Positions 1 to 50,074 of a DNA stretch of 64,000 bases are shown here, one piece after another. Each line of letters starts with the position of its first letter. Position 1 is the first letter of the stretch. Both the position numbers and the translations under genes were made by a program. The stretch is from Symbiodinium natans (taxonomy: Eukaryota > Sar > Dinophyceae > Suessiales > Symbiodiniaceae): positions 452,001 to 516,000 of the forward strand of contig CAJNDS010002140.1 of the NCBI GenBank assembly GCA_905221605.1, written 5' to 3'. Under the pieces are notes generated by a model that did not search any database, was not told the DNA's origin, and saw only the letters and a list, made by a program, of their open reading frames with translations.

Positions 1-942
1 ACCTGTTCTGGGCTTTGTGTGGTTGCGGCCCCAACTTTGGAGTGGTGACGTCCTTCGAGCTCAACGCCTCCAAGCTCCAAAGTTGTCGACAAACGAGGCA
101 AGTCTTCCACGTGCCTTCCGACCGCACGGCCTGTGAAGTCGCACCGGCTGTGCGCGCGTACATGATGCGCGCTCAGTCGCTTCCGCGGGACTGCTGCTCG
201 GACTGCTGCCTATACATAGCCGATGACCCAGCGGAGCCTGGGATGCGAGTGGGCATCTACGACTTCAACTTCGGATGTGATGTCCCCCCCGTCGATGCGG
301 CAGGCGCCAAACTGCTAGTAGAGCAGGTGGATGATGGGCTTGGTCCAATCCAGCTCATGGAGAACGAGCCGTCCCAATGTGACTTGCAGCCAGTTCAGTT
401 CCTTGATATCGACTGTCATTTGTTTTTCCCCATTGTTCTGAACTATGTTAAAGCCTGCAGACACAGGTGAGCAACCTCACGGCGTGGCGCACCGGGGCTT
501 TCTGTCCAGCAGGAGCTTCTTCACCCGGGCACTGTTTTTTGCTCGAGATGCCGAGATTAGTGAACTGCTGGTGGAGATCTTGTCGAAGGCCCCGACTCGG
601 CACTGCTACTTCCACTTCCAGCACATGGGCGGTGCCGTGGCGGACGGTAGCAGCGAGAGCAGCGCATTTCTTTTACGAGATGCAGAATGGTCGCTCGTGA
701 TCAAGGGGGCGTGGGCCGAGGATGAGGGTGACTGCACCCCGTGGGTCAGAGACGCGGTGAAACTCTTGATGCCCTTTGCGTTGGGATGCTACGCCACCGA
801 CCTCGGAGCGGAAGATCTCGAAATGGCAGCTCAGACTTTCGGCCGTAACGCTGAGCGCTTGCTGGATTTGAAGCAGAAGTGGGATCCCAACAACATGTTC
901 AGACATGGTTTTCCGCTATCCCAGTTGGGGAAGGCTGCTTGA
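1..942 (+). CDS. FAD-linked oxidase, berberine-bridge-enzyme type, C-terminal part
   Basis: This is the 3' part of a gene cut by the window edge. The first residues read CGCGPNFGVVTSFEL, which matches the conserved glycine-rich segment near the end of the FAD-binding domain (usually G-G-G-G-N-F-G-V-V-T). The end reads AERLLDLKQKWDPNNMF, the usual C-terminal berberine-bridge (BBE) motif K-x-x-x-D-P-x-N-x-F. Such enzymes are flavoproteins that oxidise alcohols, sugars or alkaloids with oxygen; the substrate here cannot be told. Two reading frames must be joined. The best join is exon 1 to 414, intron 415-460 (GT..AG, 46 nt, very short) and exon 2 461-942, with stop TGA at 940-942. A different intron boundary is possible. 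The first glycine of the usual GGGG run is replaced by cysteine. Confidence 0.7.
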
Positions 943-1331
943 CATGGCCCTTCTTCCAAGATAGTTTGACCTCATACTGCAGCATTCGCGCAATTTGCAC
1001 GTGGCGTGTGCAAAATGCGAATCAAAAAGACTTTCCGGCCGTATCCACTGCCGCAGGCCGGGCAAGTGCACCACGGCTCTGAAGTTGCACGGTACTGCAG
1101 CTCTAAGTTCTGACTGTGGGAACTACTCGGGCTTCGGTGTGCTAAGCCTTGTACATGCGCTTCACCCTTGGCCCCTAACCTTTATCGCCACGTGTCTGCG
1201 AGTGAGTCTGCGCTGACGCAGGACACTCGGCAGCAGATCTGTGGAGGACGTGTGCTGGTGCGTATCCGGCTGGCTCCTGACGAGGCAGGTCTTTGGGATG
1301 CTTGAGGGCGCCCCGGCCACCCCGTGCCATG
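943..1331. other. 3' flank of the oxidase gene
   Basis: This stretch has short ORFs only, none with a recognisable domain. It is probably 3' UTR and intergenic DNA between the oxidase stop and the first minisatellite. Confidence 0.4.
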
Positions 1332-1458
1332 ATTTAGGTATATTTAGGTAAATTTAGGTGCATTTGTATATTAGGTATATTTAGGTATATTTAGGTATAT
1401 TTAGGTATATTTAGGTATATTTAGGTATATTTAGGTATATTTAGGTATATTTAGGTGG
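1332..1458. repeat. 10-bp minisatellite TATATTTAGG
   Basis: About twelve tandem copies of a 10-bp unit related to TTTAGGTATA. It contains TTTAGG but is out of register with the 7-bp telomere repeat, so it looks like a diverged or independently expanded form. Confidence 0.9.
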
Positions 1459-1608
1459 CTTATCCAGGAAGCTGCACTTGTGTGGTTTCTAGCTGTTTAT
1501 GCACTTTCTGTGCTGTGGATGTCTTCATAGCAGTATTGATACATGCCTGTCATGTGCAATGGCACGACATACAGCTGAAATCATGATGTGATTCTGTTCA
1601 CATTCTTC

Positions 1609-1631
1609 TCGCTCTCTCTCTCTCTCTCTCA
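1609..1631. repeat. CT microsatellite
   Basis: A short (CT)n run, about eleven units, in AT-rich sequence upstream of the ATG5 exons. Confidence 0.85.
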
Positions 1632-1865
1632 ATCTCTTTGCCTCTTCTTTTTTATGTATAATCATATTTGCAAGATACGGTTCGTATTCTATTAACATGG
1701 CCATACTCGTAGACACGTCGCATAGCCAGATGTCGCATAGAAAACATGTTGGTATGATGCTGTATACTTTTTATGGTATACTGTACTTACAATTTGTCAA
1801 CATACGTTGTTGGCTGGCCATCTTTGCCTGGAAGTTCTTGTTGATGATGTGTTTTGCTTTCTTAG

Positions 1866-4800
1866 GGAAGTTTCTTTGGGTGTTGGATGCGAGGTCGCCT
1901 CGCTCGCTGAGCCGGATCCCTTATTCAGCCTGGTGCCTCGGGCAGCTTATACCCCTAATTTCGGAAACCCTAAACCCTAAACCCTAAACCCTAAACCCTA
2001 AACCCTAAACCCTAAACCCCCAGGTGCCTCGGGCAGCCTATCTGCCCTTCCTCTTTCATGATGTGCTCGAGCACTTCAAGAAGTCGGCGATCGCCCGCAT
2101 GGGCCAGCCCTATGAGCTCTGGTTCGACTACAATCACACGGTCCCCCGGGCCAGACTTAGGAGTTTAGGGTTTAGGGTTTAGGGTTTAGGGGTTTAGGGG
2201 TTTAGGGGTTTAGGGGTTTAGGGGTTTAGGGGTTTAGGGGTTTAGGGGTGTTTAGGGGTGTTTAGGGGTTTAGGGGTTTAGGGGTTCAGGGAAAGGATCC
2301 TGGGCTGATCGTTGTGCTTGCATCCTGCGCGAGTGCCGCGCCGTTTCCTGAGGCACTGAAGTGGCACTTTCCATTGGGAGTGCTGTGCGATGCCTTGGTT
2401 GGCATGGAGGCGGGAAATATTGCACCCCGAGGCAGCGATACTTGCTGCCTTGAATCAACCCTAAACCCTAAACCCTAAACCCTAAACCCTAAACCCTAAA
2501 CCCCCCGCGCCCCCACGCCTTCCTGAACAGTTGCAATGCCGTCGATGCCTGGGCGCTTGGTGGCCGGTTTGGGGTTCGGGACCCCCGCTTGGAGGTTCAT
2601 GGTACCTATGAACCCAATTGTAACGATACTTCCAACCCTAGACCCTAAACCCTCACCCCAAAACCCAAAACCCTAAACCCTAAACCCCCCCCTGTAGTCC
2701 CCAAGACTGCATACACCACAGACAGCCAATCTGGGAGTTTACGAAAAAAAGGGGCCCCCTGTAAGCGACCCCAAATAGTAGGACTCCCCAAACCCCAAAT
2801 CCTAAACCCTAAACCCTAAACCTCAAACCTTAAACCCTAAACCCTAAACCCTAGACCCTAAACCCTAAACCCTAAACCCTAAACCCTAATGTCATGTGTG
2901 TGCCCGGTTGGGGAGGTCCCCGTCCCGCTTGATCTCACGGTCCACTTCCGTGGAAACTCCCTGATGAAGGAGCTGCTGCCCTTCAGCCGCTTTGCCAGGT
3001 TTATCAGGGCGGGGGGCAGAGGGGGGGGGGGTTTAGGGTTTGGGTTTTAGGGTTTACGGTTTAGGGTTTGGGGTTTAGGGTTCTGGGTTTTTGGGTTTTT
3101 GTTTAGGGTTTAGAGTTGAGGGTTGAGGGTTTAGGGTTTAGTTTCAGGGATCATCGGTTTTTTGGGTTTCCGGGGTAAGCTGGAACCCAGGGCAGGTGTT
3201 CCCTTTTATTGCGGGTTTTCGGTTCCCTTATGAAGGCCTCTTCCAGCAAAGGGCAGCCTTGCTGTTTCTAAGTTACTCTTGGCCCTCAGAAGTCGGTGCC
3301 CTGAAGCCCTGAAGCCCCAAACCCTAAGCCCTAAACCCTAAACCCTAAACCCTAAACCCTAAACCCTAAATTCGCTTCCCGAAGCCAGCGGGTTCAATGC
3401 CTTGAGGTGGCATGGCCGATCTTCAGCGGTCGGTCATGAACGCTTTCAAGCAGGCAATGGAGCTGCGCATGCCCTTTCGGGTTTAGGGTTTAGGGTTTAG
3501 GGTTTCGGGTTTAGGGTTTAGGAAAGTTTAGGGTTTAGGGCAAGAATGGGGGGGGGGGCCTACAGAGATGCAAACTCCAAAGCCCCAGGCTTTGCTACTT
3601 TAAGAACACATATATATGTATATACACATACAGAATGTATTGTAAATTTTAGTAGATATAAAAACACAGCATGCTACTGTATTACCATGCCAGGCCATCT
3701 TCTTGGAAGTGGGCTCCGCCTCGCGCTTCATGCGCTTGGAGAAGCAACCCGCCTGCAAGGAGCACAGAGACCGCAGTTTGTGTTTCGATCTGTTAACTTT
3801 TAAGTTGGGATGTTCCACTTTATCCTAACAGTCCTTAATACGGATCATTGTATAGTCCCAATTAAGGACTGTTAGTAAAAGGGGGAACATCCGATTCTTT
3901 AAGGTTTGTCGGGCATGGAAAGTCCCGTGAAACGCACAACCCAAAGAGGCCCGAAACACGAAGCTGCAGTGAGGAAGGAGCACATGATGCTCTGGGATGC
4001 GATACTTCGGAGCGACATCAAGAGCTTTGCCCAAGTGGAGGCTTGGTAGCCCCGTGGTAACCCTTTACATTTGTTTTTGGGTTCTGGGTTCCCTTATAAA
4101 GTAGCCAACCCAAAAAAGAGTGCCCTGATTGTAACATGGTTGCTGGGCTGCCAAGGAGGAAAGGCTCATGTGCAGCACGCTCCTGGAGTGCAAAAGTCTG
4201 GCCGTGCGGCTTCATATCTCTGCGCCTGTGCATGGAGACGAGGCACATCCCCTCACGACAAAAAGAGAGGTTTTTTGTAGAAAATCGGGGACCCCCCAAT
4301 ATAGATCCCCAAATTTGTAGGCTCCCCTTATAACAAGGATCCCAGTAAGGTACACACTATATCGCAAACCTTAAATCTACAAGTCTTAAGACACTAGCCC
4401 CAATCCTTTAAAACCTAAAGCCCACCTCAACTCTTCTCAACCATGGCTGTAACCCTAAACCCTAAACCCTAAAAGTGATGAAGCCGGTCCTGCCTTGAAT
4501 TACGTTCCGACCCCCACCCCCTCTCCAGGTGCTGCTGCACAAGGCGCCGGAGAGCACCGGTGCGATGCATGGTTCAGGGTACCCAGAGAGGTTTAGGGTT
4601 TAGGGTTCAGGGTTTAGGGTTTAGGGTTTAGGGTGTAGGTTGTAGGGTTTAGGGTTTAGGGCTTAGGGTTTAGGGTTTCGGGTTTAGGCTTAGCGTTTAG
4701 GGCTATTCTTTAAACCATATAAGGAACCCTTTCATATGTTAAGGCATATTTCTTCATTAAGGGGGAGTTTTTGGAGTCCCTGGGTACTATCCCAATCCTG

Positions 4801-6612
4801 TAGCTAAGAGAATCATCTTTGGGAATGTCTTTCATGAGGGGTTTTCAGGGCCACCCTGGTAACTCAGGCTCCTGAAGTTCAGGGTCTAGGGTTAAGGCTA
4901 TCGAAAAGCATGACCCCAAACCCTGAACCCAAAACCCTAAATTCTAAGCCCTAAGCCCACAATGTCGGGCTGCTTCTTGCCCACTCGGGTCAAGTAACCC
5001 CAGGGTCGAAGAAGGCGGCAGACATTGCTCAAAGGTTTTTTTGAAGTCAAGCAAACATCACTTGGACCTGAGGGTCCTTATGAACCCGAACCCATCACTT
5101 CTTGTCAGGGGTCCAGGGTTTAGGGTTTAGGGTTTAGGGTTCAGGGTTCAGGGTTTGGGGTTTAGGGTTCAGGGTTTGGGGTTTAGGGTTCAGGGTTCTG
5201 GGTTTAGGATTTAGGGTGAAGGCTTTGAGCTCTTTGTTTTCCCTCCTCGGAGGCCCCTGCTCTGGACGAGTCTGGAGCAGCCTTCACTGTGGGGGCCTTC
5301 CTAGCCTTGGCAATGCCGCCGCTGCTCAGTGCGAATGGCGATGGCCTTGCGGAGGGAGTTGAGGTGCCAGGGGTTTAGGGTTTAGGGCTTAGGGCTTAGG
5401 GCTTAGGGCTTAGGGCTTAGGGCTTAGGGCTTAGGGTTTAGGGTTTAGGGTTTAGGGTTTAGGGTTTAGGGCACAAGCCGGCATTGCCAGCCAGAGAATT
5501 ACGCAAAGAAACGTCGTAAGCCAAGATGTGTGGTCATAGATACCCAAATAGACTATAAAATACCCCAAGTTGCAAGATGCCGATTCTAATGTCAAGGAGG
5601 CCTCTACGTCAGAGGCTTGCAGCGTTTTCAGGCATGTTTGGGGCGGCTTCGGGGGATGTCGGGGCTTCGTGGCGTGCTGCGCTCCATCACAGTATGTTGC
5701 CAACTTACAACCTATCACCCGAAGTGCCCGAAACCCTCAACCACCCTAAAGTCCTAAACCCCAAACCACAACAAACCCAAACCCCTCAACCCCTGCCCCC
5801 ACCCCCCCCCCCCCCCCCCCACAAAAAAAACAACAACAACAACAAAAAAGAACAAGCAAAAGCCTCAACACCTTGAAGCCCCCGAGCCTCCACGAGCTCG
5901 CGCTACAAAGCGGAACCCTCAGCCCCAAAAATCCCAAAACCCCGAAACCTACAAAACCCCCAAATCCAAAACCCAAAACCCCTAAAAGCCCCAAACCCCC
6001 AAAACCCCCCAAACCCCAAAACCCCAACCCCCCCCCCCCCCCAAAACCCCAAAACCGCGAAAAACCCAAAAACCCCAAAACACACCAGAATAGCCTGGAA
6101 CCCGAAAAACATTCTCACGTCTGGCTGATGAAGCCCACAGGTGCTGACCCAGGGCCTGACGCCGGGCTTCAGTTTTGGGGTTTTGGGGCTCTACGGTTTA
6201 GGGTTCAGGCTTGGGGTTTGGGGCTCCCGGGTTCAGGGTTTCGGGTTTAGGGTTAGGAAGTTAGGGAAGTTGGTTGTTGCCACTGTTCTGCTGGTTGGGG
6301 GTGCTATGATGATTCTTGTTCAGTGTTATTCTTATATCCTTGATGTTGTTGCTTCTGGCGGAGAAGGAGGGAGGGAGGCGTGAAAGGAGGGTGAATTGTG
6401 TGGTCGAGGTCGTGGTCGTGGTCGTGTTGGTCGTGGTCGTCGTGGTCGTCGTTGTCGTTGTCGTCGTGGTCGCGGTCGTCGTGGTCGTGAAAGTCGTGGT
6501 GGTCGTGGTCGTTGGTCGTCTTCGGGGTCGTGGTCGTGGTCGTCTTCGTGTTCGTGGTCGTGTTCGTGGTCGTCCTCGTGGTCGTCCTCGTGGTCCGTGA
6601 TTGTCGTCGTGT

Positions 6613-6666
<54 letters not shown>

Positions 6667-7329
6667 GGTCGTCGTCGTCGCCGCCGCCGCCGTCGTCGTC
6701 GTCCTCGTCGTTCTCGTGGTCGGCCTCGTTGTCGTCCTCGTGTCGTCGTGGTCGTGCGCGGTCTTGGTCTTAGTATTCGTCGTGCATGGTCTTGGTATTG
6801 GTCTTGGTCGTTGTCTTGGTCTTGCTATTGATCTTGGTTCTTGTTGCTGTTGCTGTTGCATTTGTTTTGTTTTTTGTTTTGTTTGATTTGTTTTGTTTTT
6901 GCTTGCATACAGGTTTACATCATAGTTATATTGTTGTCTTGCTTTGGGTATTTCAGGGGTTGGCGGTCCATGCTTTCGCGCTGCTGTCAGTGGGGTCAGG
7001 TGTGGACTGCAGGTTGCAAAGAAAAGGACTCCTATGCCTCAAGAGCGACACCCTAAACCCCAAACCCTAAACCCCAAACCCCAAACCCTAAACTAAACCC
7101 TAAACCCTGAGCCCTAAACCCTAAACCCTAAACCCTAAACCCCAAACCCCCAAGCCCTAAACCCTAAACCCTCCCAGCGTTCGGAGACACCCCGAGGATG
7201 GTCCCGTTGGAGACGCCCCTGTACTGGCTCTCTCTGCACGCCGGCTACATGGATCACTTTGTGCATTTGAGCCTCGGAGCTTTTCCTTATGAGGGTTTAG
7301 GGTTTAGGGGTTTAGGGTTTAGGGTTTAG
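1866..7329 (+). CDS. ATG5: Autophagy protein 5 (ATG5)-like, multi-exon
   Basis: ATG5 is conjugated to ATG12 and, with ATG16, drives lipidation of ATG8 on the growing autophagosome. Predicted exons: 1866-1932, 2024-2140, 2353-2397, 2916-2998, about 3427-3480, 3978-4040, 4156-4269, 4529-4590 and 7197 to about 7329. In order they give LVPRAAYLPFL and ELWFDYNHT (first ubiquitin-like fold), ALKWHFPLGVLCDAL, LDLTVHFRG, NAFKQAMELR, EHMMLWDAILRSD, KSLAVRLHIS, and VPLETPLYWLSLHAG (end of the second ubiquitin-like fold). These line up in order with the ATG5 family. The lysine in NAFK (3448-3450) aligns with the family's ATG12-acceptor lysine. Reading phase agrees at every join except exon 4 to exon 5, where my boundaries do not fit and a non-canonical splice or small error is possible. 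The first exon(s) with the start codon were not found. The last exon may run into TTTAGGG repeat and stop at 7327-7329, or splice again. Introns are full of telomere-like repeats and mobile elements. Confidence 0.8.
1966..2020. repeat. CCCTAAA array in ATG5 intron 1
   Basis: Eight perfect or near-perfect CCCTAAA units lie directly before the acceptor CCCCCAG of ATG5 exon 2. A 15-bp exon sequence is repeated on both sides of the array (1932-1946 and 2023-2037). Confidence 0.95.
2158..2288. repeat. TTTAGGG / TTTAGGGG array in ATG5 intron 2
   Basis: Three TTTAGGG units pass into an 8-bp TTTAGGGG variant repeated about ten times. It starts about 20 nt after the donor of ATG5 exon 2. Confidence 0.95.
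2457..2889. repeat. CCCTAAA arrays, degenerate, in ATG5 intron 3
   Basis: Arrays at 2457-2505, 2630-2690 and 2788-2889, separated by non-coding spacers. Part of a TIR element (about 2735-2790, containing CCCCAAATAGTAGGA) lies between them. Confidence 0.9.
3805..3893. mobile_element. Palindromic TIR element, family D (GGATGTTCC)
   Basis: Left and right ends are near-perfect inverted copies (GATGTTCC..CTTTAT..AACAGTCCTTAAT against ATTAAGGACTGTTAGTAAAAGGGGGAACATC). It sits in the ATG5 intron 3481-3977. Related copies are at 28234-28335 and 55464-55575, with a right half near 15600-15640. Confidence 0.8.
4041..4155. mobile_element. Introner, family F (CTTGGTAGCCC TIR) forming a whole ATG5 intron
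   Basis: The element begins GCTTGGTAGCCC and ends GGGCTGCCAAG, so its ends are inverted copies. It separates two ATG5 exons that are in frame when it is removed (codons GAG at 4038-4040 and GAG at 4156-4158). The repeated GAG is a 3-bp target-site duplication, so the intron may equally be read as GC..AG or GA..AG. Related copies are at 31663-31786, 32182-32293 (decayed) and about 35277-35345 (left half). Confidence 0.8.
4270..4384. mobile_element. TIR element at the 5' end of an ATG5 intron
   Basis: The ends TTTTGTAGA and TCTACAAG are inverted, and the inner part has GGGGACCCCCCAATA and AAGGTACAC. The intron's GT donor (4270) is at the element's left edge. Related fragments lie near 2735, 22170, 33990 and 34420. 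Confidence 0.6.
4591..5472. repeat. TTTAGGG-type arrays in the large ATG5 intron
   Basis: Arrays at 4591-4705, 5106-5220 and 5370-5472, the last with a TTAGGGC variant (about eight units). The first array starts at the donor: exon 8 ends at 4590 and the intron begins GTTTAGGG. Confidence 0.9.
5806..6060. repeat. Poly-C, CAA and CCCCAAAA-rich low-complexity tract
   Basis: A C-run of about 18, a CAA stretch and many degenerate CCCCAAAA/CCCAAAA units. It lies in the large ATG5 intron (4591-7196). ORFs here translate to proline-, lysine- or glycine-only protein and are not genes. Confidence 0.85.
6396..6850. repeat. Compound GTC/CGC/GTGGTC trinucleotide repeat
   Basis: About 450 bp of GTCGTG, CGT, CGC and CTTGGT units. 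Period three leaves several frames open on both strands (arginine-, serine-, valine- or threonine-only products). It lies inside the large ATG5 intron. Confidence 0.95.
7049..7172. repeat. CCCTAAA array before the last ATG5 exon
   Basis: Degenerate then regular CCCTAAA units end 24 nt before the acceptor at 7195-7196. With the TTTAGGG array at 4591 it makes an inverted pair at the two ends of this intron. Confidence 0.9.
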
Positions 7330-7352
7330 GGTTTAGGGTTTAGGGTTTAGGG
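7291..7352. repeat. TTTAGGG array at the 3' end of ATG5
   Basis: Eight units interrupt the last ATG5 exon. A 32-bp sequence on its left (7255-7286, CACTTTGTGCATTTGAGCCT...) recurs on its right (7355-7386) with about four differences, as if duplicated on insertion. Confidence 0.9.
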
Positions 7353-7386
7353 TGTTCACTTTGTGCGTTTGAGCTCGGAGCTTTTG

Positions 7387-8290
7387 CCTCCTTTGCACCG
7401 GGTTTGGGGTCGGCGGACAAGTATACTGCAGGCACGTTGGGGGTTTAGTATGGTTTAGGGTCTAGGGTCTAGGGCTTGGGGTTTATGATTTAGGGTTTAC
7501 GCTTTAGGGTGTAGGGTTGGTTCGAAAGACTTCTGGCCTTATGATTCTCTTGTCTTGTGCCTCGGCCCCACATGCCCTACTCCCTCACAGGATTGCCCGG
7601 GTGCCGGAAAGCTTCCTCAAGCCAGCCTGTGAGGGCGATGCCTAAATCGGGCTTTGAGTACGGCTCTGGGCTTGGAGGGGACAACAGGCGAAAAACTCTG
7701 GACAAATGTATGCTGTGGAAAGACCTCCGTTTGAGTTCACATGCTGAATCTCGTTCGTGGTTGATATTGGCCTTCCATGGTCCAGAGCTGACATGTTCCA
7801 AAGTCGTGATTGCAAAGCCTTGTGCCAGCTTATGGCCGTGATGTACATAGATCCGATGCTGGAGATGACTCCTTTCGCTCGTGCCAGCAGCTTTGGTGGT
7901 TGGCCTTGCAGCCACCAGAAGGACGAGCGCAAAGTGCCAGGCCTCGTGCAGGAGTGAGTGCACAGAGCGATGCTTGGAGGAGAAATGGAGTTTAGGGTTT
8001 AGGGTTTAGGGTTTTAGGGTTTAGGGTTGAGGGTTAGAAACCTACACCTCACGGCTTTGCAAAGCTGACGTGCTCGACTTGCCATGCTCAAGCGTACACA
8101 CGCAACACACACGACAAAGATGACTGTGTACAGGACCATGTCGCATGTAGCATCTGTACCTACAGTCAGAGCTCTTGCTCTTCACGCCGTTTTTTTTTGT
8201 AGCCCTCATGGGTTCTTGCAGCTTGTGATTCATAGCAGAGCCGGGCTGATGAATCCTTGCTTCGTGCAAGCCACCATAAGCCACCACATA
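7387..8290. other. ATG5 3' flank, no supported gene
   Basis: Short overlapping ORFs on both strands and TTTAGGG-like tracts at 7440-7520 and 7985-8035. A 128-residue minus-strand ORF (7577-7963) has no recognisable motif and I do not call it. Confidence 0.4.
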
Positions 8291-11800: not shown

Positions 11801-14800
11801 GTTTGCGGGCTTTTCGGGTTCAGGTGTAACTAGGGGCGTTTTATCGAGGGTTCCTGGTTTGGAACAGCTCTCTACCTGCGTCGCTGATGCAAGGAGCTTC
11901 GCACTCAATGGAGGTATTGGGTAAGTAGCACAGCAGACCGGGAGTGGGGGAGAATCTGATCGTGCAGGACTATCCCAGCCGCGCTTTCGGGTACTTCTGC
12001 AAGCCCTTGGGGCCAGAGCTAAAGCAGCAGGCCTGATATGGGTTTAGGATCTTTAGGGCTTAGGGCTTAGGGTTTAGGGGAGTGGCCCCTATGAGCTTAT
12101 GGTCAGCAGTGCAACTGTTTCACGCGTTAGGACATCAGGGAGGCTTCATCTCCAAGTACAAAAGGTTCGTTCAGAACCGGGCGTTGGGACATCCTGACAC
12201 CAGTAAACCCCCTAAACCCTAAACCCTAAACCCTAAACCCTAAACCCTAAACCCTAAACCCTAAACCCTAAACCCTAAACCCCCTTCAACCTAATGTCAG
12301 ACCACCCTAGAACAGGGAGAGAGCCACGGGAGCTCCAAAGTCCAAAAGTCATGTCAATGGCCTATAGGAGGGACCCTTATAAGGAACCTTAGGGGTTATT
12401 CTAGGGGTTTATTGAGGGGTTATTTGGGGGTTATTTAAGGGTTATTTAGGGGTTATTCAGGCGTTATTCAGGGGTTATTTAGGGGTTATTTAGGGGCTAC
12501 TTGGGTATATAGGGGCCTCCTCGTGCTAGTTTCGGTCCGCAGCGAGAGCACTCCGGTTGTGGCAGTTTCGGTCCGCAGCGAGAGCACTCCGGCTGTGGGT
12601 GCCGCGGCAACATCGACCTAGAGCCCCTCTAACCCTGCGTTAGAACCCCCTCAGTGTAGACACACTGTTTGGGAATCATTCCCATCTTGTATATTGAATG
12701 TACATTACCGGTGTATTATCGTGGGCCAATGGGTTGTGCAAGGAAATTCCTTATATTGGTTGGTGGTCTCTTCAAGTAGGGTTCCTGTTTTGTAGGGGGT
12801 TCTTATTAGGGTATCTAGGGGCTACATTAAGGTATGAGGGTAAACCCTAAACCCTAAACCCTAAACCTTAAAGAGGTCACGGGCCTTTATAGGAAATTCC
12901 TGAAGTTGCCTGGCAGATCAAGTCCTTCGGCTTCGACCAAGACAAGGGACCGATCCTCAGGCCCGATCACTTCGGGAGAGGGGTTTAGGGTTTAGGGTGT
13001 AGAGTGTAGGGTGTAGGGTTTGGGGTTTAGGGCTTAGGGTTTAGCAATCGCAAACCCCTGGGTCCAAAATGTAGAACCCCCCAAGTAGTGCCCTCTACTA
13101 TTGGGTCATCCTTGGGGTTGCTTAAGGAGATCTGCTTTTGGTTTGCTCCTCCCAGGGCTGGGATGAGGAGTGATACCTGCACGATTCTGATGAGTTTGCT
13201 TTCGAAGGCTCCTTTCAACAGCCTTTCATTCAGTTCTTGATACCCTAAACCCTAAACCCTAAACCCTAAACCCTAAACCCTAAACCCTAAACCCTAAACC
13301 CTAAACCCTAAACCCTAAACCCTAAACCCTAAACCCTAAACCCTAACCCAACCCTCCTGCAGGCTCTGGGGCGTCCTTTCCAGGACCTGGTTCGTGCTCG
13401 TGATGGCCGCTGTGGTCACAGGGTTCATTGGGTGCGCCATGAGCCGGTACTTGGAGGTTCATGGTACTTCATTAGCCAATATAGGGTTTAGGGTTTAGGG
13501 TTTAGGGTTTAGGGTTTAGTTGGAGGTTCATGGTACTTAATATCCTACCATTTGCTTGAGAACCCCCACCCCCAAAAAAAACAAAACTAAAACAATAGTC
13601 CCCCTACTACCCTTATAAGGAAGAATGTTTTCTTTTTTGGGGGTTCTTTACTCAATTCGTAGTAACCCAGTTATCACTGTACTTATGGCCCAATTATAAC
13701 CGCATTTGGGCACGTTTAGGGCTTATAACTGGGTTATACGTGCAGTGATAACTGGGTCTTTAAGTACCATGAACCTGCAGGTAGATCTCTCACATTCATG
13801 TGCTTCTTGGGGGTGCCATTTGCAATATGGGCCATTGCATTTAGGGGGCCCGACAAAGCGCGGCGTTGGGTTTCTTGGTATTCAGAGTTGTTGTTAGCAC
13901 CCCATTATCGGCTTAATTTTGGGGGGATATAAGGCACCTATTTTCTTCTAGGACCGGGAGTAGGCCCTTTTTCCTTTTTTTAGGGTTGGGGTTCCTTTAT
14001 AATCCCCTTAAAACCAAAAAGGGTACCCGTTTATTCCTAGGTTACTCCCGGGTCTAGTTCCTCAAGAGCTCAAAAGGTTTGGGATGCAAGCACGGAAGAT
14101 ATTCGCCCAGAGTTTGGCTGGCAGCCTTCGTCTGGGTTCAGGGCTTCTGGGTTCAGGCCATAGACCCGAAACCCTAAACACTGAACCTTACACCCTAAGC
14201 CCTAAACCCTAAACCCTAAACTCTGAACCCTAAACCGGCATCTGTCAGGTACTGCTACATCTTGCTACTCTTCATCAGCCCGGATGTCGTGGCGACGTGG
14301 TGCACGATCATACTGACTGTCTTGCCGATAGGTTGGAGCCCCGGATGACTCGGATGTTTGATAGCATGAAGAGGACCAAAAACTTCTCTCCGGGCCACAG
14401 CCGTCTTCTACGCAGCACGGAGTAGCACGGTTTAGGGTTTAGGGTTTAGGGTTTAGGGTTTAGGGTTTAGGGTTTAGGGTTTAGGGTTTAGGGTTTAGGG
14501 TTTAGGGTTTAGGGCCCGTTTCTGCTACTCAGTGCCGAATTGGGCTACTCAGTGCTGAGTTCGGCTGCAGTAAGGCACCGGTGCGTGGATCGTCTACACC
14601 ACTGCGAACCCAGGACTGCCGAAACCCTGAACCCTAAACCCTACACCCTAAACGTCCATGTGCCTAGATAGGGAATACTTGGGCCTTAAAGTACCTCCTA
14701 AAAAAAGCACTTTGGGGCCCAAGTACATGATAAGAAGGTATATGGGCGGTTGTCAGAATTATGGTCCCTTTTTGGATCCCTATTATCATACGGCACCTCA

Positions 14801-41395: not shown

Positions 41396-41439
41396 TCCTG
41401 GGGACGGCCTTGGGCAGGGGGGGGCTGGAATTTAAGTCA

Positions 41440-42336
41440 CCCTTAAGTTTTTGGAAAACTGAGCTCCCGAAATGACAAATCGCAAGCAGTGTCCCTCTTA
41501 AGTTTTTGGACAACTGGGCTCCCAAATGACAAATCGCAAGCATTGTTACCCCTGAAGTTTTGGAAAACAGGGCTTCCAAAATGACAAATCGCAAGCAGAG
41601 TCCCCTTTAAGTGTTTGGAAAGCTGAGCTCCCAAGATGAGAAGTCGCACGCATTGTCCCCCTTAAGTTTTGGAAAAAGGAGCTTCCAAAATGACAAATCG
41701 CAAGCAGTGTCCCCCTCTAAGTTTTTGGAAAACCGAGCTCCCAAAATGACAAATCGCAAGCGTGTCCCCCTTAAGTTTCTGGAAAACTGAGCTCCCAAAA
41801 TGACAAATCGCAAGCAGTGTTCCCCCTTGGTTTTTTGGAAAACCGAATTTCCAAAATGACAAATCGCAAGTAAGTGTTCGGAAAACTGAGCTCCCACAAG
41901 GACAAATCGCAAGCAGTGTCCCCCTTCAGTTTTTGGAAAACGGAGCTCCCAAAATGACAAATCGCAAGCTGTGTCCCCCCTTAAGTTTTTGAAAAACTGA
42001 GCTCCCAAAATGACAAATCGCAAGCAATGCCCCCCTTAAGTTTTTGGAAAATGGAGCTCCCAAAATGATAAATCGCCAGCAGTGTCCCCTTTAAGTTTTT
42101 GGACAACTGAGCTCCTAAAATGATGAATCGCAAGCAGTGTCCACCCTAAAGTTTTTGGAAACCTGAGGTCCCAAAATGACAAGTCGCAAGCAGTGTACCC
42201 CTGCTTTTGGAAAACGGAGCTCCCAAAATGTCAAATCGCCAGCAGTGTCCCCCGTAAGTTTTTGAAAAACGGAGCTCCCAAAATGACAAATCGCAAGCAG
42301 TGTCCCCTTTAAGTTTTTGGAACACTGAGCTCCCAC
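41440..42336. repeat. 55-bp satellite, block 1
   Basis: About 16 units of a 55-bp repeat with consensus parts TTTTTGGAAAACTGAGCTCC, CAAAATGACAAATCGCAAGC and AGTGTCCCCCTTAAG. Copies differ by up to about 20 percent. Long minus-strand ORFs are repeat artefacts. Confidence 0.95.
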
Positions 42337-44980: not shown

Positions 44981-45187
44981 TAATTCGTAGTAATCTCCAG
45001 ATTTACCCCTAATTGAATTGGTTTAAACAATTTAACTAATTTAATTTATTTAAAGAATTTACTCCCACAGAACTAAATTATTTACATTGTTTTTCACGTA
45101 TTCGGATTAAATTAATTTAGATAATGTAATTCTGTGGAATTAAATTATTTAAATACATTAAATTGTAGTAGAGGTAAATCTAGAGAC
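44981..45187. repeat. AT-rich imperfect palindrome
   Basis: AATCTCCAGATTTACCCCTA on the left is inverted at TAGAGGTAAATCTAGAGA on the right. Between them are many AATTTAATTTAAT words. Its right arm abuts the 87-bp satellite. Confidence 0.75.
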
Positions 45188-48025
45188 CTGCAAATGCCAC
45201 ACAAAACGGAAGAGGGTAGGAACAACTTTGCGGGTCGACATTTGCCGGGATCCCCTTGGCGCCCTGCGAAAGTCCTGCAAATACCACACAAAACGGAAGA
45301 GGGTAGGTGCAACCTTTACAGGTCGAAATTTGCCGGGATCCCTTTGGCGCCCTGCCAAAGTCCTGCAAATACCACACAAAACGGAAGAGGGTAGGAACAA
45401 CTTTGCGGGTTGAGATTTGCCGGGATCCCCTTGGCGCCCTGCGAAAGTCCTGCAAATACCACACAAAAAGGAAGAGGGCAGGAACAACCTTTACAGGTCG
45501 AAATTTGCCGGGATCCCCTTGGCGCCCTGCGAAAGTCCTGCAAATACCACACAAAACGGAAGAGGGTAGGAACAACTTTGCGGGTCGAAATTTGCGGGAT
45601 CCCCTTGGCGCCCTGTCAAAGTCCTGCAAATACCACGCAAAACGGAAGAGGGTAGGAACAACCTTTACGGGTCGAAATTTGCCGGGATCCCCTTGGCGCC
45701 CTGCCAAAGTCCTGCAAATACTACACAAAAAGGAAGAGGCTAGGAACCACCTTTACAGGTCGAAATTTGCCAGGATCCCCTTGGCGCCATGTCAAAAGTC
45801 CTGCAAATACCACACAATACGGAAGAGGGTAGGAACAACTTTGCGGGTCGAAATTTGCCGGGAGCCCCTTGGCGCCCTGCGAAAGTCCTGCAAATAACAC
45901 ACAAAACGGAAGAGGGTAAGAACAACTTTGCATGTCGAAATTTGCCGGGGTTCCCTTGGCGCCCTGCCAAAGTCCTGCAAATACCACACAAAACGGAAGA
46001 GGGTAGGAACAACTTTGCAGGTCGAAATTTGCCGGGATCCCCTTGGCGCCCTGCCAAAGTCCTGCAAATACCACATAAAAACGGAAGAGGGTAGGAACAA
46101 CTTTGCGGGTTGAAATTTGCCGGGATCCCCTTGGCGCCCTGCGAAACTCCTGCAAATACCACACAAAACGACAGAGGGTAGGAACAACTTTGCATGTCGA
46201 AATTTGCCGGGATCCCCTTGGCGCCCTGCCAAAGTCCTGCAAATACCACACAAGAAGGAAGAGGGCAGGAACAACCTTCACAGGTCGAAATTTGCCGGGA
46301 TCCCTTTGGCGCCCTGCGAAAGTCCTGCAAATACCACACAAAACGGAAGAGGGTAGGAACAACTTTGCGGGTTGAAATTTGCCGGGATCCCCTTGGCGCC
46401 CTGCGAAACTCCTGCAAATACCACACAAAACGACAGAGGGTAGGAACAACTTTGCATGTCGAAATTTGCCGGGATCCCCTTGGCGCCCTGCCAAAGTCCT
46501 GCAAATACCACACAAGAAGGAAGAGGGCAGGAACAACCTTCACAGGTCGAAATTTGCCGGGATCCCCTTGGCGCCCTGCGAAAGTCCTGCAAATACCACA
46601 CAAAACGGAAGAGGGTAGGAACAACTTTGCGGGTTGAAATTTGCCAGGATCCCCTTGGCGCCCTGTCAAAGTCCTGCAAATACCACACAATACGGAAGAG
46701 GGTAGGAACAACTTTGCCGGTCGAAATTAGCCGGGATCCCCTTGGCGCCCTGCGAAAGTCCTGCAAATACCACGCAAAACGACAGAGGGTAGGAACAACT
46801 TTGCATGTCGAAATTTGCCGGGATCCCCTTGGCGCCCTGCCAAAGTCCTGCAAATACCACACAAAACGGAAGAGGGTAGGAACAACTTTGCGGGTTGAGA
46901 TTTGCCGGGAGCCCCTTGGCGCCCTGCCAAAGTCCTGCAAATACCACACAAAACGGAAGAGGGTAGGAACAACCTTTACAGGTCGAAATTTGCCGGGATC
47001 CCTTTGGCGCCCTGCCAAAGTCCTGCAAATACTACACAAAAAGGAAGAGGCTAGGAACCACCTTTACAGGTCGAAATTTGCCAGGATCCCCTTGGCGCCA
47101 TGTCAAAAGTCCTGCAAATACCACACAATACGGAAGAGGGTAGGAACAACTTTGCGGGTTGAGATTTGCCGGGAGCCCCTTGGCGCCCTGCCAAAGTCTC
47201 GCAAATACCACACAAAACGGAAGAGGGTAGGAACAACTTTGCATGTCGAAATTTGCCGGGATCCCCTTGGCGCCCTGCCAAAGTCCTCCAAATAACACAC
47301 AAAACGGATGAGGGTAGGAACAACTTTGCAGGTCGAAATTTGCCGGGATCCCCTTGGCGCCCTGCCAAAGTCCTGCAAATACCACATAAAAACGGAAGAC
47401 GGTAGGAACAACTTTGCGGGTTGAAATTTGCCGGGATCCCCTTGGCGCCCTGCGAAACTCCTGCAAATACCACACAAAACGACAGAGGGTAGGAACAACT
47501 TTGCATGTCGAAATTTGCCGGGATCCCCTTGGCGCCCTGCCAAAGTCCTGCAAATACCACACAAAACGGAAGAGGGTAGGGACAACTTTTACAGGTCGAA
47601 ATTTGACGGGGTCCCCTTGGCGCCCTTCCAAAGTCCTCCAAATACCACACAAAACGGAAGAGGGTAGGAACAACTTTGCGGTCGAAATTTGCCGGGATCC
47701 CCTTGGCGCCCTGCAAAAAGTCCTGTAAATACCACACAAAACGGAAGAGGGTAGGAACAACTTTGCAGGTCGAAATTTGCCGGGATCCCCTTGGCGCCCT
47801 GCCAAAGTCCTGCGAATACCACACAAAACGGAAGAGGGTAGGAACAACTTTGCGGGTCGAAATTTGCCGGGATCCCCTTGGCGCCCTGCAAAAAGTCCTG
47901 TAAATACCACATACCACACAAAACGGAAGAGGGTAGGAACAACTTTGCGGGTTGAGATTTGCCGGGAGCCCCTTGGCGCCCTGCCAAAGTCTTGAAATGC
48001 CACACAAAACGGAAGAGGGTAGGAG
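45187..48025. repeat. 87-bp satellite, about 33 units
   Basis: Unit parts: TTTGCCGGGATCCCCTTGGC, GCCCTGCGAAAGTCCTGCAA, ATACCACACAAAACGGAAGA, GGGTAGGAACAACTTTGCGG, GTCGAAA. 87 is divisible by three, so long ORFs (up to 325 codons) stay open on both strands; they are not genes. A higher-order period of about 262 bp (three units plus one base) is visible at 46103-46640. The GGGATCC site and GGCGCC palindrome are conserved. Confidence 0.97.
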
Positions 48026-48585: not shown

Positions 48586-48635
48586 AGATCCTCACCAAGG
48601 CCACGGGTCAAATAATACATAAAGGGTTCTCTTAC

Positions 48636-50045
48636 AAGCAGTGTACCCCTTAAGTTTTGGAAAACAAAGCTCCCAAACTGACAAATCGCAAGCAGTGTCC
48701 CCCGCAAATTTTCGAAAAACTGAGCTCCCAGAATGACAAATCGCAAGCAGTGTCCCCCTCTAAGTTTTTGGAAAACCGAGCTCCCAAAATGACAAATCGC
48801 AAGCAGTGTCCCCCTTAAGTTTTTGAAAAACTGAGCTCCCAAAATCACAAATCGCAAGCAGTGTGCCCCCTTAAGTTGTTGGAAAACTGCGCTCCCAAAA
48901 TGACATATCGCAAGCATTGTTACCCCTGAAGTTTTGGAAAACAGGGCTTCCAAAATGACAAATCGCAAGCAGAGTCCCCTTTAAGTGTTTGGAAAGCTGA
49001 GCTCCCAAGATGAGAAGTCGCACGCATTGTCCCCCTTAAGCTTTTGGAAAACTAAGCTCCCAAAATGACAAATCGCAAGCAGTGTCCCCCGTAAGTTTTT
49101 TTGGAAAACTGCGCTTCCAAAATGACAAATCGCAAGCAGTGTCCCCCTTAAGCTTTTGGAAAACTAAGCTCCCAAAATGACAAATCGCAAGCAGTGTCCC
49201 CCTTAAGTTTTTTGGAAAACTGCGCTCCCGAAATGACAAATCGCAAGCAGTGTCCCCCATAAGCTTTTGGAAAACTGAGCTCCCAAAATGACAAATCGCA
49301 AGCAGTGTCCCCCGTAAGTTTTTTGGAAAACTGCGCTCCCAAAATGTCAAATCGCAAGCAGTGTCCCCCTTAAGTTTTTTGGAAAACTGCGCTCCCGAAA
49401 TGACAAATCGCAAGCAGTGTCCCCCATAAGCTTTTGGAAAACTGAGCTCCCAAAATGACAAATCGCAAGCAGTGTCCCCCGTAAGTTTTTTGGAAAACTG
49501 CGCTCCCAAAATGACATATCGCAAGCAGTGTCCCCCTTAAGCTTTTGGAAAACTCAGCTCCAAAAATGACAAATCGCAAGCAGTGTCCCCCGTAAGTTTT
49601 TTTGGAAAACTGCGCTTCCAAAATGACAAATCGCAAGCAGTGTCCCCCTTAAGCTTTTGGAAAACTAAGCTCCCAAAATGACAAATCGCAAGCAGTGTCC
49701 CCCTTAAGTTTTTTGGAAAACTGCGCTCCCGAAATGACAAATCGCAAGCAGTGTCCCCCATAAGCTTTTGGAAAACTGAGCTCCCAAAATGACAAATCGC
49801 AAGCAGTGTCCCCCGTAAGTTTTTTGGAAAACTGCGCTCCCAAAATGACAAATCGCAAGCAGTGTCCCCCTTAAGTTTTTTGGAAAACTGCGCTCCCGAA
49901 ATGACAATCGCAAGCAGTGTCCCCCTTAAGCTTTTGGAAAACTGAGCTCCCAAAATGACAAATCGCAAGCAGTGTCCCCCTTCAGTTTTTGGAAAACTGA
50001 GCTCCCAAAATGACAAGTCGCAAGCAGTGTCCCCCTGTAAGTTTT
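48636..50045. repeat. 55-bp satellite, block 2
   Basis: About 26 units of the block 1 repeat, with a higher-order duplication of about 505 bp (for example 49082-49500 and 49587-50005). A ~125-bp run of variant units at 48914-49040 is almost identical to 41541-41667 in block 1. Confidence 0.95.
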
Positions 50046-50074
50046 TGGAAAACCGATTCAGGGAGGACTGCTCA

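Follow-up and report, generated by a model that had tools for sequence, protein, structure and literature searches.

A telomere-repeat intron in ATG5 of Symbiodinium natans, probably gained by insertion with duplication of exon sequence

The origin of introns is a long-standing question on which clean cases of recent date are scarce, and one locus of the dinoflagellate Symbiodinium natans poses it in concrete form: how did an array of telomere repeat come to lie within ATG5, between two copies of the same stretch of exon, where splicing restores the reading frame? Here, we examine this locus in a window of 64,000 nucleotides (positions 452,001 to 516,000 of contig CAJNDS010002140.1; unprefixed positions below are those of the window). 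We suggest that ATG5 gained its CCCTAAA intron, a spliceosomal one, in or near the genus Symbiodinium by insertion of telomeric repeat at a staggered break, with the duplicated exon sequence giving both donor and acceptor, a reading to which we assign a probability of roughly three in four.

Several lines of evidence support the ATG5 gene model on which this reading depends (Table 1). Exons were placed by homology to the proteins of relatives, and splice sites were picked to fit this homology and the AG|G pattern. The joined product aligns with P0001 without gaps over 297 residues at 85.5% identity, the first dozen residues, in the left part of exon 1, being doubtful, and this gapless match was obtained only with 1933-2023 removed. 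P0001 itself has 305 residues, is probably a transcript because the contigs concerned measure at most 1045 bases, and holds one copy of the duplicated segment. An early draft of the joined exons matched the ATG5 UblA and UblB domains in Pfam (PF20638, E 8.8e-18; PF04106, E 7.9e-5) and solved ATG5 structures at E 3e-19, and the S. pilosum ATG5 protein (P0004) is 94% identical over 183 residues. The identity, junction and phase proposed in the first-pass annotation are thus confirmed by homology. The donors of the 13 model introns are GT in three cases, GC in eight and GA in two, the donor types described for dinoflagellates in PMC11453091, and all 13 end in AG|G, a pattern that was used in choosing the sites. 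ATG5 is single-copy in this genome: all seven matches fall at this locus, and neither an intronless paralogue nor a second allele was found among them. A PF04106 profile search of the whole genome gave no match, and the same search of 14 control genomes was likewise empty and is hence uninformative.

The first coding exon (MAAEANVGEVPLHS) probably lies ~3.5 kb upstream, at L009:7645-7690. The CCCTAAA intron, labeled intron 1 in the first-pass annotation, is therefore at least the third of the gene, being the second in the window. Between this probable exon and the remaining ATG5 sits the second copy of a duplicated gene. The tandem copies (L009:4221-7177, and L009:9480 to window position 968) are ~91% identical in 920 and 506 bases and have introns of very unequal size. 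We take this gene to be FAD-linked-oxidase-like, and the first intron of ATG5 may contain it. Positions 1332-1456, towards the donor side of ATG5 intron 1285-1893, are occupied by an array whose 10-base unit (ATTTAGGTAT) is related to that of the telomere.

Table 1. Coordinates of ATG5, of the CCCTAAA intron and of direct duplications flanking telomeric arrays
Feature	Position	Strand	Remarks
ATG5 in window	1174..7645	+	14 exons, 13 introns; left limit of exon 1 approximate
ATG5 exon before intron, VASLAEPDPLFSL	1894..1932	+	spliced model vs P0001, P0002, P0004
Left copy of 15-bp direct repeat	1932..1946	+	intronic except first base; donor GT 1933-1934
Filler with degenerate repeat, TTATACCCCTAATTTCGG	1947..1964	+	18 bases; its TTAT prolongs repeat with one mismatch
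CCCTAAA array, perfect	1965..2019	+	55 bases, 7.9 units
Right copy of direct repeat	2023..2037	+	acceptor AG at 2022-2023
Intron I2 of window model	1933..2023	+	91 nt, GT-AG, phase 0; unbroken in seven relatives' frames
ATG5 exon after intron (VPRAAYLPFL...WFDYNHT)	2024..2140	+	spliced model vs P0001, P0002, P0004
Duplication, ATG5 I2	1932-1946 / 2023-2037	+	15 bp; at splice sites by homology
Last ATG5 intron (7269-7590), TTTAGGG array	7292..7353	+	spliced model
Last ATG5 intron, left copy	7254..7284	+	31 bp; spans exon end and donor
Last ATG5 intron, right copy	7356..7385	+	30 bp; within intron
TTTAGGG array	13482..13519	+	exact 19-bp repeats 13451-13469 / 13520-13538
Duplication	L010:7161-7179 / 7286-7304		19 bp
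Duplication, CCCTAAA array flush on both sides	L027:117-130 / 199-212		exact 14 bp; lysine-rich coding-like
Duplication	L023:1965-2003 / 2041-2079		39 bp; set aside by complexity filter, reads as plain duplication

The structure of the intron is simple. The 15-mer GGTGCCTCGGGCAGC is present in two exact copies, and the direct repeat lengthens to 19 bases with one mismatch permitted. The first-pass annotation had located both copies correctly to the base and described a CCCTAAA array between them; the array is there and is perfect, and the filler stands between the copies as well. The bases CCA separate the array from the second copy, whose first G completes the acceptor. Thus, the annotated donor and the splice at 2023 stand, while the AG does not lie wholly before the right copy, as had been stated. 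With CTG ending one exon and the next starting at 2024, the product reads SL^VPRAAYLPFL. All splice positions within the repeat pair yield the identical message, and only one of them combines a G-starting donor with an AG ahead of the acceptor.

Such a layout might also result from a tandem duplication of exon sequence that made the splice sites, the telomere array having grown between the copies later. Two exon copies do flank the intron, and intron gain by this route, in which duplicated exon sequence gives the splice sites as in ATG5, is described in PMC4974935. In that route, however, duplicated gene sequence separates the sites, whereas in ATG5 telomere repeat lies between the copies; the 76 intervening bases are something other than exon sequence, and there is no third copy. 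We therefore regard this course of events as highly improbable.

Introners, which are intron-making transposable elements, are reportedly the subject of work on dinoflagellates by Roy et al. in 2023. The possibility that an introner inserted at this site draws on their record in dinoflagellates (PMC11453091, PMC7789003), on their reported presence in ~4% of the genes in the Symbiodinium group (PMC11114475), and on another ATG5 intron, 2986-3406, which carries TTTAGGG towards its 5' end and CCCTAAA towards its 3' end and folds array to array through these complementary termini (z −8.95). By contrast, no terminal inverted repeats were found in 1933-2023, and the fold of this intron is unremarkable (z +1.04). 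Moreover, its 15-bp duplication exceeds the 3-9 bp of cut-and-paste introners described in PMC9860276, and the telomere unit is all that it has in common with the other insertions examined. Among the origins considered here, an introner is the one we find hardest to credit.

Insertion with duplication implies a prior state without the intron, and this state can be read from relatives. Two protein searches yielded 37 proteins, nine of which (P0028-P0031 and P0033-P0037) carry this exon together with non-ATG5 tails; by their sequence, these nine frames look genomic, running into introns, and were taken as such. In seven of them (P0029, P0030, P0031, P0033, P0034, P0035 and P0036), the stretch from VASL through LFSLVPRVAYLPFLF is unbroken. 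Because these frames read straight across the site, the intron is absent, at the protein level, in those relatives. They are not seven independent species, since five are identical in this exon to the Breviolum protein P0003 and the other two resemble Cladocopium. P0037 begins after the intron site and is thus uninformative. The intronless relative that the first-pass annotation had named as decisive is accordingly found at the protein level, with seven of the nine frames unbroken across SL-VPR, and the same intron with the same flanks, which it had named as the refuting outcome, was not seen among the relatives' protein frames.

The remaining frame, the S. pilosum-like P0028, has exons equal to those of S. 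pilosum P0004 and is interrupted ~14-15 nt downstream of the site, just ahead of YLPFLF, i.e., where the duplicated segment has its far end. Immediately upstream of its exon there are no telomere-like residues. This border could reflect the same insertion using the other copy, an older intron or an event of its own; the alternatives are thus an older event with a different resolution and a second intron beside the first. Intron 3, which holds a 121-base array in the window, is read through in P0028 with no telomere repeat; P0028 has the intron after NHT, without an array; and its last residues are GFRV, as encoded by TTTAGGG repeats. Thus, arrays differ between the two species yet occur in both.

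The P0028 border, situated at the right-hand limit of the duplicated segment, also favors a reading in which an older Symbiodinium intron was nearby, the array inserted at its edge with duplication, and the remainder of the old intron was later lost. Consistent with this, arrays sit in introns at positions common to relatives, e.g., after NHT, and the 31-bp repeat of the last ATG5 intron covers an existing donor. On the other hand, the 91 nt are fully accounted for by one repeat copy, the 18-base filler, the array and CCCCAG, with nothing left over, and there is no intron in the Breviolum-like and Cladocopium-like frames. An older intron at this site is therefore unlikely, and we favor gain of the whole intron by telomeric-repeat insertion.

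Is a direct duplication around a telomeric array more than chance? We compared the 60-base flanks of 347 arrays with 999 mismatched left/right pairs, scoring non-simple direct repeats. Repeats scoring at least 14 were present in 9/347 arrays and 0/999 controls; the counts were 11 vs 1 at a score of at least 13, 13 vs 6 at 12 or above and 14 vs 11 at 11 or above. An unfiltered test confined to the window was weaker (score of at least 11 in 7/102 arrays vs 5/207 control pairs), and its top single score (48) belonged to a control because flanks share dispersed repeats. For an exact 15-mer common to both 60-base flanks of any of the 102 window arrays, ~0.0003 cases are expected at equal base frequencies. 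With a duplication beyond chance and the intron absent from seven relatives' frames, the intron gain by telomere-repeat insertion with target-site duplication put forward in the first-pass annotation is supported.

Evident insertion with duplication concerns few arrays. Of the nine scoring at least 14, three lie in a local tandem repeat (L010:3796-4275), one is telomere-like, and five are clean; altogether, clear duplications of 14-39 bp flank 6/347 arrays, two of them in ATG5. The tandem units of L010:3796-4275 themselves contain short telomeric stretches. The 13451/13520 case is weaker because part of its motif recurs elsewhere in the window. By reading frame and AG|G only, the L010, L027 and 13451 duplications look like exon edges, and L027:117-212 may represent another newly gained intron, with GA-AG borders. 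Head-to-head telomere fusion was rejected as a general origin of introns: repeats scoring at least 11 in the outer flanks were present in 2/88 TTTAGGG-then-CCCTAAA pairs, both in local tandem repeat.

The inserted material is the host's own telomere unit, as CCCTAAA, TTTAGGG being the dinoflagellate telomere unit according to PMC11453091, and this unit is extremely abundant. The 21-mer CCCTAAACCCTAAACCCTAAA has 1,184,385 and 1,185,204 matches on the two strands of the assembly (759,417,921 bases in 2543 contigs), and the reversed pattern, used as a control, has 33 and 41. In a sample of 245,668 bases including the window, 17,600 of them masked as N (in L019, L021 and L022), 350 arrays of at least 21 bases add up to 21,553 bases, or 9.5% of the unmasked part. 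Four 10-kb pieces are free of arrays, and one of these is fully masked. L024, 10 kb with no telomeric array, has long open frames and appears retroelement-like by eye. The window also holds satellites with 55-bp and 87-bp units, at 41436-42335 and 48635-50053 and at 45187-48024. An assembly artefact is not favored, because arrays are present in most sampled pieces and the coding frame closes exactly.

Based on these observations, we suggest the following path. A staggered break of ~15 bp would open in the coding sequence CTG|GTGCCTCGGGCAGC. Telomerase would extend the 3' end of the right-hand fragment, giving TTTAGGG on the bottom strand and CCCTAAA on the top strand, and fill-in would leave the segment on both sides of the insert. 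The duplicated segment begins with GGT, and CA stands at the end of the insert; the left copy would therefore supply the GT donor and the right copy would complete the AG acceptor, and removal of the intervening sequence would bring back the original frame without change. The array could act at once as the 3' region of an intron, since it is C-rich, is free of AG and GT, and contains CTAAAC, which we take to resemble a branch site.

Telomerase would be the simplest source of the repeat, and fragment capture is to be taken seriously as a rival: the insertion and its duplication would be real, and the repeat would have been captured or copied from another telomeric array, by end-joining or template switching and without telomerase. 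Donor arrays abound throughout the genome (21-mer matches number 1.18 million in forward and 1.19 million in reverse orientation), filler lies between the left copy and the array, and both telomerase and fragment capture are named as possible in mammals in PMC2246262. Against capture, only telomere repeat and the 18 bases of filler came along, and the starts of arrays, read on the G strand, favor GGG (p 0.0009), as priming from a fixed template might give. Because array ends are biased as well (p 7e-6), the start register does not single out telomerase and leaves the choice undecided. We consider capture quite possible, as a minority view of where the repeat came from.

The closeness of arrays to splice sites is supported by two genes. 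In the ATG5 introns, TTTAGGG accounts for 472 bases in the 5' halves vs 166 in the 3' halves, and CCCTAAA for 348 bases in the 3' halves vs 94 in the 5' halves, a half-bias with p 0.0005 by circular shifts within introns. Of the 13 ATG5 introns, 10 have TTTAGGG within 60 nt of the start or CCCTAAA within 60 nt of the end, with 6.1 expected (p 0.003), and 3 have the reverse arrangement. The second gene is an ion channel (best relative P0038, CACNA1S of S. necroappetens), for which exon ends were taken from BLAST limits and one interval was omitted. Over both gene models, the distance to a splice site is at most 60 nt for 20/33 arrays, with 12.2 expected (p 0.0015), and in 15 of these 20, TTTAGGG is nearer a donor or CCCTAAA nearer an acceptor (p 0.04). 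Judged by the nearest edge, the orientation of all arrays agrees in 20/33 (p 0.30), and the mean distance from array to nearest splice site in the two genes is not significantly short (p 0.09). A strict strand rule, with TTTAGGG only near donors and CCCTAAA only near acceptors, is thus rejected on the counts of 15/20 and 20/33, and orientation is a tendency only. No arrays were found in two kinase introns (L035 and L036).

Across the sample, gaps from a CCCTAAA array to a TTTAGGG array have a median of 136 bases, and 37/89 measure 100-150 bases, vs 15/92 in the opposite order (TTTAGGG then CCCTAAA). With ATG5 excluded, the CCCTAAA-to-TTTAGGG gaps are more coding by codon score than other gaps (p 0.0002); as a coding test, open-frame length did no better than shuffles. 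The exon-sized, coding-scoring gaps suggest that exons are bracketed by arrays. CAGG stands after CCCTAAA arrays 87 times and before them 66 times, which is not decisive.

How does this intron compare with known systems? In mammals, interstitial telomeric repeats at double-strand breaks, as described in PMC2246262 (Table 1 of that paper), have a target duplication at 6/130 rodent and 4/25 primate loci. They resemble the ATG5 case in having the telomeric unit at an internal site, relatives with an empty site and sometimes a target duplication, the empty site here being known from protein frames only. Unlike them, the ATG5 insert interrupts coding sequence and is removed as an intron, with the junction placed by homology, and its host is a dinoflagellate in which arrays make up ~9.5% of the unmasked sample. 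In Daphnia, introns from staggered-break repair have direct repeats of 4-12 bp (PMC4202315). As in that account, the ATG5 insert has a direct repeat of exon sequence at its opposite end and splice sites that are new from the repair product; unlike in Daphnia, the repeat is 15 bp and the insert is recognizable as telomere repeat. Dinoflagellate introners, as described in PMC7789003, PMC11453091 and PMC9860276, are likewise insertions turned introns with direct repeats at exon borders, whereas the ATG5 intron has no inverted ends, shares only the telomere unit with the other insertions examined, and has a longer duplication. Simple-repeat invasion has a precedent in the Polarella genome, which is reported to be ~19% (TTG)n. 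No word beginning with "telomer" was found in the main text of the S. natans genome paper (PMC8045281) or of the Symbiodiniaceae k-mer, Polarella and Effrenium papers, as far as these texts were available, and telomere-repeat introns do not feature in titles or abstract openings among the matches listed for the open-access literature, which lacks most subscription papers. Intron gain by break repair is already known; telomeric repeat as the inserted material would be the new part.

A broader proposal is that the addition of telomere repeat at exon breaks or edges is a standing source of introns and intron ends in this dinoflagellate lineage. Duplications of 14-39 bp would regenerate splice sites, and TTTAGGG near donors and CCCTAAA near acceptors would be kept as splicing aids, through G-rich 5' ends, C-rich AG-free 3' ends and end-to-end pairing. 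Intron ends can pair where both array types are present, as in 2986-3406, and do not in the CCCTAAA intron. We advance this proposal tentatively and think it rather doubtful in its full extent. If it is true, telomerase shaped gene structure genome-wide.

In the ATG5 case, the inserted material is identifiable, both copies of the target are intact, relatives show the state that preceded insertion, and many further arrays can be screened. Telomeric-repeat insertion may be a little-noticed route of intron birth. It would join the literature on telomeric repeats at breaks with that on intron gain by repair, and the rate and mechanism of intron birth would become testable in a culturable alga.
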